From: Planctomicrobium sp.
GTDB lineage: Bacteria > Planctomycetota > Planctomycetia > Planctomycetales > Planctomycetaceae
NCBI GenBank assembly: GCA_029259835.1
Contig: JAJDEL010000315.1
Coordinates: 1-12,463, forward strand
DNA: 12,463 nt
Reading direction: 5' to 3'
Under the pieces are notes generated by a model. It worked only from the letters and a program-made list of their open reading frames with translations, did not search any database and was not told the origin of the DNA. A program made the position numbers and the translations under genes. Positions 4,602-9,361 of the stretch are shown in pieces (position 1 is the first letter of the stretch; each line of letters starts with the position of its first letter).

Positions 4602-5243
4602 TCAATTGCTCTTCGTAGAATTTTTCGCGGCGCGAAGGACTGGGTAATACTGTGTGAATACGAAATCGTCGTCGGCAGATCCGTCGTGGCAATCGTTGCA
4701 GCTTGCGGCTGGTTGTGCTTTTGCGTGATCTTTCAATGGATACTTATGTCCAAAGCTGAAGTAGGCCCAATTGCCTGGCTTATCCTTGTAACGAGTCTTA
4801 TCTTTCATTGAGACCTCAAGTCCGACGAATTCACCCATGAAATAGCCAATACCACTGGTCGCTTCTTTATCACCAACGCTGACAAGTTCCTTCACAATGA
4901 CAGTCCCGTCCGGAAAGTCACCGGTATTTTCATAGTGATCGAACGCGTCTGGACTCATGTAGACACTGTGGAATTCCGGAAATGGTGCGTTACCACCATT
5001 CATGTCATTCGGAGTCACTGGCGTGCCGACGTATGTCCATTTTCGGTAGCCAGTCGGCCTGACGAGTTCCCCATCTTTGTTGAACTGGACGAGCGATGAC
5101 GCGTGAGATTTCTTCTTCGCGTTTTGTGCTGCAACTGCCTGCCCCTGCAAATTCATTGAGACCGCAATCGCCGCGATGGCAATGACTCCGGGGACAAGCA
5201 ACAACAGGCGAAAGCGTCGTGTTTTGAGTGGGGGGTGATTCAT
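4602..5243 (-). CDS. cytL: Cytochrome P460, close to the ammonia-oxidiser type
   Basis: A 213-residue secreted c-type heme protein. Residues about 12-30 are hydrophobic and AVAA at 36-39 fits signal cleavage, so the mature protein should be periplasmic. The heme motif is CNDCH (182-186), with H186 as the proximal ligand. GTVIVKELVSVGD (113-125) aligns with the Nitrosomonas europaea P460 segment that contains Lys70, the lysine cross-linked to the heme; the equivalent here is K118. PGNWAYFSF and FTQYYPVLRAAK also match that enzyme as I remember it. P460 enzymes oxidise hydroxylamine, giving N2O when NO reacts with the intermediate. ATG at 5243 has an AAGGA site (5250-5254) seven bases away. It is second in a likely two-gene operon, 70 bases after the other P460 gene. 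Confidence 0.9.
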   Translation of the reverse strand: MNHPPLKTRRFRLLLLVPGVIAIAAIAVSMNLQGQAVAAQNAKKKSHASSLVQFNKDGELVRPTGYRKWTYVGTPVTPNDMNGGNAPFPEFHSVYMSPDAFDHYENTGDFPDGTVIVKELVSVGDKEATSGIGYFMGEFVGLEVSMKDKTRYKDKPGNWAYFSFGHKYPLKDHAKAQPAASCNDCHDGSADDDFVFTQYYPVLRAAKNSTKSN

Positions 5244-5313: not shown

Positions 5314-5946
5314 CTAACGCTTGGATCTTTTTAGATCGGGATAACCGTAGGCGTAGACCCAGTCGCTATCTGCGACGGGAGTGTGGCAAGCAATGCAGCT
5401 TGTGTCGTAACCTGCTGAAACGTTCTTGGTCGGGTCTTTCGCTTCAAACAAAGCCCATCCCCAGCCGTCACCCCAGTGATCGTTGTTCTTGAATCGCTCT
5501 TTGTGATCTTTGATCATCACAAACCAAATCTTGATATCCGCAGACCAGGCCGCGTGGCCTGTTGTCAGTCGATCAGACTGCGTTTTGCGAACCTCTTTCA
5601 CCAGCACTGTCCCGTCGGGAAACTGACCAGTTTTGTTGAAGTCGCTGATCGTCTGCGGCTGTGTGTAAACATCGTGCATCTCGTGGACAGTTTCACCCGG
5701 TTTCTTTGCGACAGCCCAACTCCCGAGGTGTGACCACTTCTGCTTGTAGTCTTCAGGCAAACTAATGTTGCCGTCCTGATCGACATACGGCGAGAACGCG
5801 TCTTGTGCGTCGACAGGGTTTCGGTTCGCTTGAGTCTTTGTGTCATTCACTGTTTTCGCGGCGTCACGTTGAGCAGTCACGCCAACCGCGACTGCAACGC
5901 AGGAGAGAATCACTGAGGAGAGCAGAATGAATCGAACAGGTTTCAT
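5314..5946 (-). CDS. Cytochrome P460 family protein, divergent paralog
   Basis: A 210-residue protein with a signal peptide (hydrophobic residues about 6-24, cleavage likely after VTA at 23-25) and a c-type heme motif CIACH (184-188). FPDGTVLVKEV (109-119) keeps the lysine (K117) that in cytochrome P460 is cross-linked to heme, so it is more like a true P460 than a lysine-less cytochrome c'-beta. The rest differs strongly from its neighbour: it has a tryptophan-rich stretch (HWGDGWGWALFEA, 157-169) instead of the PGNWAYFSF region. A separate substrate or redox role is possible. It is the first gene after a sigma-54 promoter (5994-6010), with a predicted leader of about 36 bases. The ATG at 5946 has no clear Shine-Dalgarno sequence. 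Confidence 0.85.
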   Translation of the reverse strand: MKPVRFILLSSVILSCVAVAVGVTAQRDAAKTVNDTKTQANRNPVDAQDAFSPYVDQDGNISLPEDYKQKWSHLGSWAVAKKPGETVHEMHDVYTQPQTISDFNKTGQFPDGTVLVKEVRKTQSDRLTTGHAAWSADIKIWFVMIKDHKERFKNNDHWGDGWGWALFEAKDPTKNVSAGYDTSCIACHTPVADSDWVYAYGYPDLKRSKR

Positions 5947-5993
5947 GGTTCACATTTTCGAAAGGGGCCAAGTGCTTTGACTCCCGTTGAAAA

Positions 5994-6010
5994 GCGAACC
6001 GTGTGCCAAA
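5994..6010 (-). promoter_or_regulatory. Sigma-54 promoter of the P460 operon
   Basis: Read on the minus strand the site is TTTGGCACACGGTTCGC. The -24 element TGGCAC is perfect, and GG (6007-6006) and GC (5995-5994) are separated by exactly 10 bases; the -12 element is TCGC against the consensus TTGC. The predicted transcription start is near 5982, about 36 bases before the ATG at 5946. Confidence 0.8.
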
Positions 6011-6108
6011 CGCAGATGTTTCTGACGATCTGCATGCAACAGGCTTAATGATCAAGTTTCGCATGAAGCCTTCACATTCAAACAGCAAAACGCAGAGTTA
6101 CTATTCGC

Positions 6109-6160
6109 AACATATGACAAATATGGTCTTCAAATATGACGCACTCAGCAAATATGGCGA
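6109..6160. promoter_or_regulatory. Activator-binding cluster upstream of the P460 operon
   Basis: Four related sites lie in 52 bases. AACATATGAC (6109-6118) and AAATATGGTC (6119-6128) together give the dyad CATAT-N5-ATATG (6111-6125). AAATATGACG (6132-6141) and AAATATGGCG (6150-6159) follow as direct repeats 18 bases apart. The cluster lies at about -127 to -178 from the predicted sigma-54 start, the usual range for enhancer sites. The same pair of repeats occurs at 6980-7008. The likely binder is the activator encoded at 7757-9361; that is inference. Confidence 0.7.
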
Positions 6161-6178
6161 TGACAATTACGTCCAGAA

Positions 6179-6766
6179 TCAGGTTGCATCGAGAATCGAC
6201 TTCGTCTCTCTCTGTAGAGCTGGAAGAACCTCCGCAGCAAACCATGGGTTCTTTTTGAGCCACCGGTTATTACGCGGGCTTGGATGAAGGATCGGAAAGA
6301 TCGCGGGGGCGTATTCCTGCCAACGCTTGACGGTTGCTGTCAGAGACTCTCCTTTGACCTCAGACAGCCGATGTTTCTGAGCGTAGTTTCCGATCAAGAT
6401 TGTCAGTTCGATTTTATTCAGGTGAGCCAGAAGAGAATCATGCCACAATTCGGCACATTCTTTTCGAGGTGGCAGATCACCAGAATCACCAGTTCCTGGA
6501 TAACAAAAGCCCATCGGAACCAGAGCGACGGTATCAGGGTCGTAAAATTGCGTTGATTCAATTCCCATCCAACTACGCAGCCGGTCTCCACTGGCATCCT
6601 CCCAAGGAACGCCCGATTCGTGTACGCGTCGACCGGGAGCATGACCAATGATTAAAATTCTCGCGGAATGACCTGCCTGCAAGATCGGACGAGGGCCAAA
6701 CGGCAAGTGTTCTTCACACTCCCGGCACTGACGAATTTCATCGAGTAAAATCGGTAGTTCAGTCAT
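6179..6766 (-). CDS. Uracil-DNA glycosylase family protein
   Basis: A 195-residue cytoplasmic protein. GHAPGRRVHESGVPW (41-55) matches the active-site loop of the family 4/5-like uracil-DNA glycosylase superfamily, SGDRLRSWMG follows it, and HPSPRN (161-166) is the C-terminal HPS-type DNA-binding motif. Four cysteines, C14 and C17 (CRECEEH) and C88 and C104 (spaced by 15 residues), have the C-x2-C ... C-x15-C pattern of the [4Fe-4S] cluster in family 4 enzymes. These enzymes remove uracil from DNA, made mainly by cytosine deamination. Activity in this subgroup is inferred. The ATG at 6766 has GAGGA (6771-6775) four bases upstream. It has its own sigma-54 promoter (6841-6857). Its stop lies just before the P460 activator sites, with no terminator seen, so readthrough into the P460 operon is possible. 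Confidence 0.85.
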   Translation of the reverse strand: MTELPILLDEIRQCRECEEHLPFGPRPILQAGHSARILIIGHAPGRRVHESGVPWEDASGDRLRSWMGIESTQFYDPDTVALVPMGFCYPGTGDSGDLPPRKECAELWHDSLLAHLNKIELTILIGNYAQKHRLSEVKGESLTATVKRWQEYAPAIFPILHPSPRNNRWLKKNPWFAAEVLPALQRETKSILDAT

Positions 6767-6840
6767 TCATTCCTCAGCTTCCTGCAAGCGTGGGCCACCA
6801 GTATTTCAGATATAATCGAGTATCTCGTGTCTCGGTCAGG

Positions 6841-6857
6841 GCGAACGAAGTGCCAAA
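6841..6857 (-). promoter_or_regulatory. Sigma-54 promoter of the uracil-DNA glycosylase gene
   Basis: On the minus strand the site is TTTGGCACTTCGTTCGC. The -24 element TGGCAC is perfect, and GG (6854-6853) and GC (6842-6841) are 10 bases apart. It closely resembles the P460 promoter: + strand bases 6841-6875 and 5994-6028 agree at 26 of 35 positions. The predicted start is near 6829, giving a leader of about 62 bases. Confidence 0.75.
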
Positions 6858-6957
6858 CTCGAACGTTTGTGAAGAGACAATCGCAATGTTCCAAAACGGC
6901 CAGTCTTCTTTTACTTTCATTATTTTGAAACGTGTATGCGTCAATTTGTAAATTGCA

Positions 6958-7009
6958 ATATTTAACGAAATGAGTCGTTAAATATGACGAGGTTCGCCAA
7001 ATACGGCGA
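6958..7009. promoter_or_regulatory. Activator-binding cluster shared by the glycosylase and globin genes
   Basis: ATATTTAACGA (6958-6968) and TCGTTAAATAT (6975-6985) form a perfect 11-bp dyad with a 6-base spacer. The right half runs into AAATATGACG (6980-6989), and AAATACGGCGA (6999-7009) follows 19 bases on. The last two copy the arrangement in the P460 cluster. The cluster lies at about -129 to -180 from the glycosylase start and -168 to -219 from the globin start, so one enhancer could serve both directions. Confidence 0.7.
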
Positions 7010-7149
7010 GCATCCCGTGATGGTCTCAGTGCCACCGTTTTAACGCTGCGCGGATTAGTCAGTAAATACAGATCGCCCGTCAGTGATTTTCAAGAGCAGA
7101 AAAAGAACACCTCTATTTTCCAGTGCAGGCCAGAGTTCCAATCGCGCGA

Positions 7150-7165
7150 TTGGTACGGCACTTGC
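7150..7165 (+). promoter_or_regulatory. Sigma-54 promoter of the globin gene
   Basis: TTGGTACGGCACTTGC differs from the sigma-54 consensus TTGGCACG-N4-TTGC at one base. GG (7152-7153) and GC (7164-7165) are 10 bases apart. The predicted transcription start is near 7177. This rules out the longer open frame from 7123 as the real protein start and leaves a leader of about 45 bases before the ATG at 7222. Confidence 0.8.
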
Positions 7166-7210
7166 GTTTCCGTTCAGCATACTTGACCACAAACACCGAA
7201 ACCAGAAAAC

Positions 7211-7215
7211 GGAGG
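7211..7215 (+). promoter_or_regulatory. Ribosome-binding site that fixes the globin start
   Basis: GGAGG lies six bases before the ATG at 7222 and is one of the best Shine-Dalgarno sites in the window. It supports the start at 7222 over the in-frame ATG at 7123. Confidence 0.85.
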
Positions 7216-7221
7216 AAGTCG

Positions 7222-7746
7222 ATGACGAATCTCACTCGAAGGACAATGCTTGGAAACTTGCCGGCTGCGGCGATTGGCGTTGCGAGTACGGTCGCACTGA
7301 TGAGTACCAAAGATGCAGAAGGGCAGGAACCGGCAAAGCCCGCAGCCGGGGCGACGCTTTATGAGCGACTTGGCGGCTACGACGCGATCTCAGCCGTTGT
7401 CGAGGACTTCGCGGACAAGCTCCTCGCAGACAAGAAAATCAATCAGTTCTTTCGCGGGATGGGGACGGACACCTGGGACACCTTTAAGCAGAAGAATAAA
7501 AATTTGCTTGCCGCCGCCACAGGCGGTCCAGCCAAGATCATCAGTCGTCCAGCCAAAACCGTCCATGGGGGACTCAAAATCACCCAAGGTGATTTCAACG
7601 TTGTCGCCGGTCACCTCAAAGTAACTTTAGAGAAATTCAAAGTTCCGGAACGCGAAACAAAGGAAGTTTTCGCGATCATCGGATCACTTCAGCCAGACAT
7701 CGTGGAACGAAAAACTGTCAAACTCAGCCGCGATATCGATTGTTAA
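7222..7746 (+). CDS. Group 1 truncated hemoglobin with Tat signal
   Basis: A 174-residue protein. Residues 5-28 (TRRTMLG, then a hydrophobic Ala/Val/Leu stretch) look like a twin-arginine signal, so the folded globin may be exported or membrane-anchored. The globin domain covers about residues 46-160. LYERLGGYDAI (46-56) is the family's opening motif, GGP (101-103) the conserved loop, and H115 in TVHGGLKI the proximal F8 histidine. The B10 position, usually Tyr in the FY pair of this group, is Ala (FAD, A64), which should alter the distal pocket. Group 1 globins bind O2 and NO, and some convert NO to nitrate. The start at 7222 is supported by GGAGG and by the sigma-54 promoter upstream. The gene converges on the activator gene with a 10-base gap. 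Confidence 0.88.
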   Translation: MTNLTRRTMLGNLPAAAIGVASTVALMSTKDAEGQEPAKPAAGATLYERLGGYDAISAVVEDFADKLLADKKINQFFRGMGTDTWDTFKQKNKNLLAAATGGPAKIISRPAKTVHGGLKITQGDFNVVAGHLKVTLEKFKVPERETKEVFAIIGSLQPDIVERKTVKLSRDIDC

Positions 7747-7756
7747 GGAACTCAAA

Positions 7757-9361
7757 CTAATGACGCTCGATCCCCAGTTTACGCATCCGTGCTCGGAGCG
7801 TACTGGGGTTCATGTCCAGAACTTCAGCTGCTCCACCATTGCCGCTGATCTTCCAGTTTGTTTCTTCGAGCGTGCGTGTGATGTGGCGACGTTCGACTTC
7901 TTCCAAAGTTGATTTGACTTGCAGAAGCGGTGCGGTCTCCTTGGCAGCGTCTGCCGTGACTGGAATATCGAGGGGCTCATCGACGTGGAGAACGCTGCCG
8001 CGAGCCAGGATCACTGCTCGCTCGATGACGTTCTGAAGTTCGCGGACATTTCCAGGCCAGTGGTAAGACTGAAACGCTTCGATCACTTCGTGAGGGATCG
8101 AATCAATCGACTTGCCGAATCGCTTTGAAAAACGAGTGACAAAGTCGCGAACCAACAACGGGATATCTTCGCTACGTTGCCGTAGCGGCGGCAGCACTAT
8201 CGGAAAGACGTTCAGCCGATAGAAAAGGTCTTCACGAAACTCCCCATTCTTGGCTGCTTGCTTCAAATCTCGGTTCGTTGCGGCAATCACGCGGGCATTG
8301 ATTCGGATCGTTGCTGAGCCACCAATTCGTTCGAACTCCTGTTCCTGCAAGACTCGCAACAGTTTGACCTGTAACTCCAACGGCAGTTCGCCGATTTCGT
8401 CCAGGAAGATCGTCCCACCATCAGCTAATTCAAAGCGTCCAATTTTCTGTGAAAAAGCGCCCGTGAAAGATCCTTTCTCGTGACCGAACAACTCGCTTTC
8501 GATGAGATCTCTCGGCAGTGCTGCACAGTTGACCTTAACCATTGTCCGGCTTTGACGGTCACTCAAATTGTGGATCGCACGCGCGAGTAATTCTTTGCCT
8601 GTCCCTGATTCACCAAGAATCAACACTGTTGCCGAAGTCACCGCAACCTGCTCGACTTCTCTGAGAACTACGTTAAGCGCTGGGCTGCTACCGATGATAT
8701 CATCGAAGTTGTTTTCAACTTTGATCTCGTCCTGAAGATAGAGATTTTCAGCCTGCAAACGGTTCTTCAGTTCTCCGACTTCTTCTAACGCCGCAGTGAG
8801 TTCCTTCGTTCGGAGCACAACTTGCTCTTCGAGTCTGAGATTGGCTTTCTCCAGTCGCTGCTCCGCTCGTAACCTAAGCATTTCCGTGCGGACACGCGTC
8901 GCGAAGATATGGAACACAGCCAGGTTCCGTGGCTGCTCGGGCATCGGCTGATCGTCCATGACCGCCAGATGACCTAAAACAAGACCGTTTTCGTCACACA
9001 ACGGCACACCTAAATAGCTCACTGCACTGAGGTCTTTCAAAGTCGTATCATCCGGAAATTCATGAGCGACGTGATCTGGGTGGTGACAGATGCTGCCATT
9101 GATGACCTCTTCGCACGGAGTTCCCATTAACTCATATTCAACATTATCGAGCAGTTTGTCGCCTGCCCAGTACGCCAGTGTCCGCACCCGACTTGTCGAA
9201 TCCGCAAATTCCGCCACGAACGCAAACCGCACTCCAAGCGCGCCAGCAAGATGCTCGACGAGTGACTGAAAGAATTCATCGCCCGAAGCCGCTGCCGTTC
9301 CTTTCACGAGACTTCTCAGTAGTTCGTGTTCAGAATCGATTTCGGACACTCGAAAACTCAC
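7757..9361 (-). CDS. Sigma-54-dependent transcriptional activator, GAF-AAA+-Fis
   Basis: A 534-residue enhancer-binding protein. Residues about 12-160 form a GAF sensor domain, and 163-215 a predicted coiled coil. The AAA+ domain starts near 220: Walker A GESGTGKE (250-257), sigma-54 contact loop GSFTGA (297-302, where GAFTGA is usual), Walker [11 protein letters not shown] (317-326) and [12 protein letters not shown] (375-386) with the arginine-finger region. The C-terminal helix-turn-helix (about 492-532) contains [18 protein letters not shown] and looks more like FhlA than NorR. Such proteins bind upstream sites and use ATP to open sigma-54 promoters. Three candidate sigma-54 promoters lie beside it. 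The GAF segment AVSYLGVPL (113-121) aligns with NorR's iron-ligand stretch but has Val and Tyr where NorR has His111 and Cys113, so the signal is open. The start is GTG at 9361; no clear ribosome-binding site. Confidence 0.92.

Follow-up and report, generated by a model that had tools for sequence, protein, structure and literature searches.

The window analyzed here, a 12,463-nucleotide stretch from Planctomicrobium sp., carries on its minus strand genes for a cytochrome P460 (P460a; 4602 to 5243; PF16694, 105 bits), a P460 paralogue (P460b; 5314 to 5946; PF16694, 98.6 bits; best PDB match, 52 bits), and a UDG-superfamily protein (6179 to 6766; PF03167). They are followed by a globin gene on the plus strand (7222 to 7746; Bac_globin, PF01152) and, again on the minus strand, by the gene for an activator of the bacterial enhancer-binding protein type (7757 to 9361) with GAF, Sigma54_activat, and HTH_8 domain profiles. 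As an earlier note on this DNA had claimed, three neighboring transcription units each have a predicted GG-N10-GC promoter, and the activator gene adjoins the enhancer-type sites. Pattern matching placed predicted sigma-54 -24/-12 elements just upstream from P460b-P460a (TGGCACACGGTTCGC; 5994 to 6008, minus strand), in which P460b is the first gene behind the promoter and P460a lies 70 bp further on; from the UDG gene (TGGCACTTCGTTCGC; 6841 to 6855, minus strand); and from the globin gene (TGGTACGGCACTTGC; 7151 to 7165, plus strand). The pattern TGGYACN5TYGC, which was fitted to these same three sites, has 3 matches in the window against a mean of 0.07 expected from 200 shuffles, none of which reached 3. 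The sigma-54 promoter consensus is TGGCACN5TTGC; independently of the fitted pattern, it returned the same 3 sites as the only ones in the window when 1 mismatch was allowed and GG and GC were kept intact. The rpoN gene was found in the window's genome (PF04552, 215.6 bits, at G000:C820) and in 14 of the 15 genomes queried, the one without it being G020 (88% complete).

Two putative enhancer clusters lie 137 to 201 bp upstream from the predicted starts (5982, 6829, and 7177). Cluster 2 (6976 to 7008) consists of the dyads CGTTAAATATGACG and CGCCAAATACGGCG at an offset of 19 bp and sits between the promoters of the divergently oriented UDG and globin genes, which have this dyad pair in common. 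Cluster 1 (6119 to 6159; AAATATGGTC, AAATATGACG, and AAATATGGCG), 137 to 177 bp upstream from the predicted start at 5982, is less regular, with offsets of 13 and 18, and its AAATATGGTC at 6119 is a weaker half-site. The two clusters that had been described as AAATATGRCG half-sites at enhancer distance are present, but that motif fits only 3 of the 4 places (6132, 6150, 6980, and 6999) with an exact match to AAATAYGRCG, the last of which reads AAATACGGCG. At 1 mismatch, the half-site showed no clear excess over chance in the window (6 matches versus a mean of 2.46, with 9 of 200 shuffles reaching 6). The 14-bp dyad CGYYAAATAYGRCG occurs exactly at three places in the 6.0-Mb genome (6976, 6995, and C392:12698, the last within a long ORF), and at 1 mismatch it is no commoner genome-wide than a reversed control (27 versus 29). 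The exact pair at 6980 to 7008 is the sole zero-mismatch match in the genome, in which no further window-type sites were found at that stringency; at up to 3 mismatches, the whole genome gave 3 pairs versus 3 in the control. Because the window dyads are near chance level at relaxed mismatch, the window's enhancer sites alone are weak evidence, and it is the relatives that carry the weight.

In 12 other loci, a related activator lies beside a P460 gene, and all 12 have a -24/-12 element together with a dyad pair offset by exactly 20 bp (up to 3 mismatches allowed). In ten of these loci, both genes are on a single contig; G387 was joined via a 149-bp contig overlap, and G308 was included because its P460 contig carries the first codons of the activator; two of the 12, G059 and G060, are nearly identical. 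The sigma-54 elements have 0 mismatches in 6 loci, 1 in 5, and 2 in 1. Among the 105 upstream regions in these loci, 9 contain a sigma-54 site with at most 1 mismatch, and all 9 belong to P460; 12 P460 loci without an activator had 0 dyad pairs and 0 upstream sigma-54 sites at the same limit. Single dyads with at most 1 mismatch numbered 20 in the relatives' loci versus 0.07 in shuffles, for a consensus drawn from the same loci, and the dyad pair was unique in each of three genomes scanned whole (control, 0). This activator/dyad/sigma-54/P460 architecture, as read from the relatives' sequences, argues for P460 as the core target of the sigma-54 regulon proposed in the earlier note (12 of 12 loci versus 0 of 12), and we consider it highly likely that P460 is wired to the regulon.

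The AAATATGRCG pair that had been suggested for a scan of relatives is not conserved as an exact motif, and we rejected it as the conserved signal: relatives have ACGRNATNTCGT at offset 20, whereas the window has CGYYAAATAYGRCG at 19 and at 13/18. The dyads ACGRNATNTCGT do share an AAATAT-like core, and the window dyads differ from them in the outer arms. Across 397 genomes of the class, the activator search gave 48 matches, of which 12, the window's among them, share a contig with a P460 gene no more than 5 kb away. The Fimbriiglobus locus (G051) has an activator and a P460 pair, yet it lacks both a dyad pair and any sigma-54 site with at most 1 mismatch, and the closest counterpart of the window's P460 pair, in G298, has an ECF sigma gene beside it in place of an activator. 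A qNOR gene in the G020 locus was rejected as a target, with no sigma-54 site at up to 2 mismatches just upstream.

The activator itself matches Sigma54_activat at 245.6 bits and a Fis-type HTH at 36.9 bits, and its AAA+ L1 loop reads GSFTGA (comparison motif, GAFTGA). Identity with NorR was rejected (354.5 bits versus an NCBIfam cutoff of 476; the relative in G004 scored 369.4). The best NCBIfam model is FhlA at 444 bits; the protein resembles FhlA-type enhancer-binding proteins in this match and in its FhlA-like HTH but differs in falling below the cutoff of 830, in having one GAF domain, and in its targets. The GAF domain of NorR has a non-heme iron that binds NO; the predicted GAF fold of the window activator (pLDDT 89.1) matches GAF domains of several ligand types and points to no single ligand. 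In the tree, the window activator groups with two PSTL-type activators (90/86) and stands weakly (83/73) beside the P460-linked clade, and we do not treat it as an established one-to-one ortholog of the P460-linked activators. Window-type dyads were absent near one of the two nearest PSTL-type activators (L262/L263), and one poor match was seen near the other (L149). It might be argued from the 23 Sigma54_activat matches in the genome, and from window dyads unlike those of the relatives, that the dyads serve another activator while the adjacent one controls something else; this seems quite improbable to us, as the activator adjoins P460 in 16 other loci examined (the 12 plus G051, G125, G128, and G159) and the change in the dyad arms is accompanied by a changed recognition helix (PSTLRAR in the window versus PNTLRSR in relatives).

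A heme-lysine cross-link defines cytochrome P460, as stated in an excerpt of PMC11928373, and the Lys is present in both P460a and P460b. In an alignment of 53 P460 ORFs, P460a (188 bits against Nitrosomonas europaea P460) keeps Lys118, Glu143, Phe88, and CNDCH, with equivalents of the Lys that forms the cross-link, the distal Glu, and the capping Phe of the N. europaea enzyme. Unlike that enzyme, P460b has replaced the distal carboxylate required for hydroxylamine oxidation by Phe, and the combination of Lys and Phe recurs in all 16 of the P460b ORFs examined. Every one of 30 high-scoring ORFs has the complete set of hydroxylamine-oxidase residues seen in P460a, a count that leaves out seven P460-domain ORFs of 85 to 112 bits (L123 to L129) without the Lys. 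Judged by the retained residues, P460a would be fit for hydroxylamine oxidation and P460b would not.

The PF03167 score places the UDG gene product in the UDG superfamily (88.4 bits versus a gathering score of 24.3; 3ikb, 182.5 bits), and a type 4 uracil-DNA glycosylase was rejected (NCBIfam equivalog score of 22.3 versus a cutoff of 250). The closest solved relative of this branch, 3ikb, is an uncharacterized protein, which weakens the earlier proposal that the product repairs deaminated bases. Of 15 UDG matches, 4 lie within 5 kb of P460 or an activator (rough binomial estimate, 5e-7); with the window left out, 3 of 14 remain (3e-5). In G387, sigma-54 element and dyads are followed by P460, a 119-amino-acid gene, a YHS-like gene, and UDG, all on one strand, and in G311, UDG lies 8 bp behind the activator, with a dyad pair in front. 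In the fetched stretches of G208, G387:C1, G106, G135, G044, G380, G276, G364, G007, and G371, neither P460 nor a sigma-54 site (at most 1 mismatch) was found directly upstream from UDG. We regard the wiring of UDG to the regulon as likely, and the recurrent link would predict a substrate class for this uncharacterized branch, namely, base lesions arising from the same chemistry. In G321, a low-scoring P460 fragment (27 bits) at a contig end lies 2.5 kb from UDG; it was left out of the linkage count.

The globin falls among the group 1 truncated globins (PF01152, 45.1 bits), with the proximal His present in the window and in 29 of 29 relatives, and its N terminus (MTNLTRRTMLGNL), judged by eye, resembles a twin-arginine leader. 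Tyr B10 of its best structural relative, HbN (72.7 bits), is Ala in the window at the position that we take to be B10, where the 29 relatives have Val (14), Leu (13), or Ile (2). Because of this replacement, an HbN-type NO dioxygenase role is unsupported; the idea that the products act in hydroxylamine/NO chemistry is supported by the residues of P460a and weakened by the missing carboxylate of P460b and the B10 residue of the globin. Globin linkage in relatives likewise fails to bear out the proposed regulon, of which UDG does appear to be a member: no other globin gene lies within 5 kb of P460 or an activator among 102 globin-bearing genomes. This absence, and an element that reads TGGTAC, one step off the consensus, would fit a core regulon of P460 (and UDG) only, with the globin a neighbor that has an unrelated or accidental GG-N10-GC. 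We think this rather unlikely, since the site is 57 bp ahead of the globin start, the dyad pair is common with UDG, and comparable sites are rare in the window, and we hold the wiring of the globin to the regulon to be fairly probable.

On balance, a sigma-54 stress regulon is the best explanation of the locus as a whole, and we judge it more likely than not. The GAF sensor would restrain the AAA+ motor; on sensing a reactive small molecule, the activator, which we infer to bind the window dyads, would assemble on these paired enhancers and remodel sigma-54 polymerase at the three promoters, so that P460b-P460a, the protein of the UDG family, and the globin, which would be exported, are expressed. 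The most likely outputs would be periplasmic oxidation of hydroxylamine and/or NO-derived species by P460a, binding or scavenging of heme ligands by P460b and the globin, and action of the UDG-family protein on deaminated or otherwise damaged bases. We take a reactive nitrogen species (NO, hydroxylamine, or a related one) to be the leading candidate for the signal, with about even confidence; the partner genes of relatives (DUF417, CMD, and a molybdopterin enzyme) seem to point at least equally to chlorine or general oxidants. DUF417, the RclC/RcrB family, is tied to HOCl resistance in an excerpt of PMC9600549; in G125, its gene follows the dyads and separates the activator from P460, and in G051 and G044, it is close to P460. 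A CMD/AhpD-type gene adjoins the G004 locus, and dyad-like pairs behind other related activators precede SDR, ferric reductase-Rieske, or molybdopterin oxidoreductase genes. Such partners would suit an unchanged wiring that responds to stress from reactive chlorine or chloramine or from oxidants/electrophiles in general, with P460 as one of several periplasmic oxidant handlers. We find this unlikely, given the residue set of P460a conserved across the high-scoring ORFs, the insecure dyads behind Gemmata-type activators (3 mismatches in GC-rich DNA), and a window with neither RclA nor a methionine sulfoxide reductase pair. RclR/RcrR reactive-chlorine regulons resemble some related loci in their DUF417 partner genes but have another regulator type, and the window is without DUF417.

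Among the known systems closest to this locus is the sigma-54 nitric oxide detoxification regulon NorR/norVW of Escherichia coli, as given in an excerpt of PMC2941729. Both systems have a GAF-AAA+-HTH activator, several enhancer sites upstream from a sigma-54 promoter, and adjacent detoxification genes, but the window activator scores below the NorR cutoff, with only AAA+ and HTH aligned, its targets are P460, UDG, and globin instead of NO reductase, and the enhancer sequence differs. In the open-licence literature searched, we found neither a described system of comparable make-up nor sigma-54 control of cytochrome P460, in agreement with the earlier note's statement that no such gene set is described under one sigma-54 regulator. 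Cytochrome P460 has been studied in nitrifiers and methanotrophs, and its regulation and role in other bacteria are largely open in that literature; an activator with its DNA sites and sigma-54 promoter, conserved across planctomycete genera, offers a direct handle on P460, and the activator's inducer would reveal the purpose of P460 in planctomycetes. The layout appears to be that of one enhancer-type switch next to its own sites, repeated with its targets in related bacteria. We tentatively suggest that it represents an undescribed sigma-54 regulon of widespread planctomycete GAF enhancer-binding proteins with P460 as its core and UDG added in some lineages, so that extracytoplasmic hydroxylamine/NO destruction and repair of deaminated DNA would be coinduced. 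In the P460-linked clade, the promoter would be palindromic, with two -24/-12 elements head to head and 4 bp between the -12 ends, and one enhancer would drive P460 or, in the reverse direction, the activator's own gene.

Profiles of the activator N-terminal domain and of the P460 family matched 48 places in 45 and 87 places in 60, respectively, of the 397 genomes of the class, and at 12 of the 48 activator places, the window included, the contig also carried a P460 no more than 5 kb away. In relatives, activator and P460 stood back to back in 12 loci, three of which (G020, HKST-UBA45, and HKST-UBA33) came from smaller samples or a named collection; these amount to about 11 independent cases, because the loci of G059 and G060 are nearly identical in sequence. 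The linkage was on one contig in 10 of the 12, and in genome G308 the first codons of the activator were present on the P460 contig. In genome G387 the ends of contigs C3 and C14 (stretches L268 and L237) share 149 bp; the activator and the P460-UDG gene row are therefore a single locus split by the assembly. All 12 loci carried a -24/-12 element (sigma-54 promoter) before P460, with no mismatch in 6, one in 5, and two in 1, as well as a pair of ACGRNATNTCGT dyads, putative palindromic sites for the activator, at an offset of exactly 20 (0 to 3 mismatches over the pair). No further copies of the dyad pair occurred in three relatives' genomes scanned whole, and 12 P460 loci whose fetched stretch contained no activator had neither dyad pairs nor upstream sigma-54 sites with up to 1 mismatch.

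We file the system as a sigma-54/GAF stress regulon, a known type, with a new core target set. Among open-licence papers on P460 with sigma54, NorR, planctomycetes, or UDG, the regulon was not described; those combining P460 with sigma54 or NorR concerned other genes in their available text, and the main text of a recent sigma-54 survey covering Planctomycetia lacks P460.

The dyad pair was also present, together with a TGGCACRGCGTTCGC element, in three loci with GAF-PAS-type activators (G125, G128, and G159), where P460a-P460b lies at a greater distance downstream; a fourth such locus, G051 (Fimbriiglobus), had neither pair nor element. GAF-PAS activators of other planctomycetes showed dyad-like pairs (2 to 3 mismatches) at the activator 3' end, directly behind the gene (L245, L246, L251, L257, and L260), followed, where looked at, by genes for an SDR, a ferric reductase-Rieske protein, or a molybdopterin oxidoreductase; such loci are possibly further branches of the regulon. 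In the P460-linked clade, an inverted -24/-12 copy followed the sigma-54 promoter, 4 bp beyond the first -12. Between activator and P460 (L039, L040, L232-L236, L146, L148, and L264), the best reverse match was at offset 4 in 10 of the 12 loci, 7 of these 10 with up to 2 mismatches; the offset was 5 in G020, and the copy was missing from G387, the window's three promoters, and three GAF-PAS-type loci. G020 also encodes, 1.6 kb from the activator and convergent with it, a NorB-type nitric oxide reductase with NorB cytochrome c-like and COX1 domains (L041:6319-8553).

The window is the entire contig C240 (12,463 bases) of a genome that is 82% complete in 954 contigs and has a sigma-54 gene. The earlier note had proposed a candidate sigma-54 regulon for reactive nitrogen species, and its five genes are all present, with Pfam scores far over the curated cut-offs: P460b (5314-5946) and P460a (4602-5243), both minus and in tandem; upstream of them, a UDG-superfamily gene (6179-6766, minus); a globin gene (7222-7746, plus) that points away from UDG; and, convergent with globin, a GAF-AAA+-HTH activator gene (7757-9361, minus). 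Its three promoters likewise held: TGGYACN5TYGC, a pattern fitted to these sites, matched only at 5994-6008 (minus), 6841-6855 (minus), and 7151-7165 (plus), against 0.07 matches in shuffles, and the same three were the only sites with up to 1 mismatch to the sigma-54 consensus TGGCACN5TTGC. They lie 48, 75, and 57 bp upstream of the start codons of P460b, UDG, and globin, respectively. The two half-site clusters it described (6119-6159 and 6976-7008) contain four exact AAATAYGRCG sequences, 137 to 177 bp upstream of the predicted P460b start, 147 to 179 bp upstream of UDG, and 169 to 201 bp upstream of globin. Half-sites with 1 mismatch were hardly commoner in the window than in the control, and in the genome 14-bp dyads with 1 mismatch and pairs with 3 were no commoner than in controls; exact matches stand out: of three perfect dyads in the genome, two are in the window, as is the one perfect pair. 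Taken alone, these enhancer sites are weak evidence for a regulon.

The window activator is about 54% identical to those of relatives and groups in the tree with two PSTL-type activators, weakly beside the P460-linked clade. We infer that the window has the same architecture with a shifted binding specificity of the activator, because the recognition helix (PSTLRAR versus PNTLRSR in relatives) and the outer arms of the dyads (CGYC/GRCG versus ACG/CGT) both differ while the AAATAT core is kept. Most likely, the GAF domain would repress AAA+ until a signal arrives and lifts the repression, and the activator bound at the dyads would loop to sigma-54 polymerase, as in the NorR scheme in the available text of PMC2941729. 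Unlike NorR, the window activator falls short of the NorR model cut-off (354.5 versus 476), and NorR identity was rejected. Its GAF domain is predicted confidently as a GAF fold, which does not reveal the ligand.

P460 as the core enzyme speaks for hydroxylamine or NO as the signal. The available text of PMC11928373 defines P460 by a cross-link Lys and ties hydroxylamine oxidation to a distal carboxylate. Lys, Glu, and a Phe cap are kept in 30 of 30 high-scoring P460a ORFs, and in all 16 P460b ORFs examined Lys is kept and Phe replaces the carboxylate (window included in both sets); seven low-scoring P460 ORFs lack the Lys. The main rival signal is reactive chlorine or general oxidants, for which relatives' partner genes, DUF417 and oxidoreductases, speak; DUF417 has been connected with HOCl (PMC9600549, in its available text).

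Matches to this rare UDG branch came from only 14 of the 397 genomes and numbered 15, of which 4 adjoin P460 or the activator. Besides the window, UDG lies 8 bp behind the activator in G311, with a dyad pair in front of both; in G387 it comes after P460, a 119-aa gene, and a YHS-like gene, all in one direction downstream of a dyad-bearing sigma-54 promoter; in G158 it lies about 70 bp behind P460b, with neither activator nor dyads. Gene order suggests operons at these loci. A rough binomial, which assumes a distance of 5 kb and three such loci in each genome, puts the chance of this linkage at 5e-7, or 3e-5 with the window left out. The closest solved relative of the window's UDG is 3ikb, an uncharacterized protein.

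Globin matches occurred in 102 of the 397 genomes; judged by contig and position, the window's is alone in having an activator or P460 match 5 kb away or less. Membership of the window's globin gene in the regulon is suggested by the gene's own promoter and by the dyads that it shares with UDG. The globin has Ala in place of HbN Tyr B10.

The P460a/P460b pair is recurrent: each of the 16 P460b ORFs has a P460a on the same locus (L263, L265-L267, L269, L270, L332-L335, L122, L048, L239, L240, L242, and the window). The pair or UDG also occurs near other regulators, namely, ECF sigma (G298 and G208) and AraC (G044).
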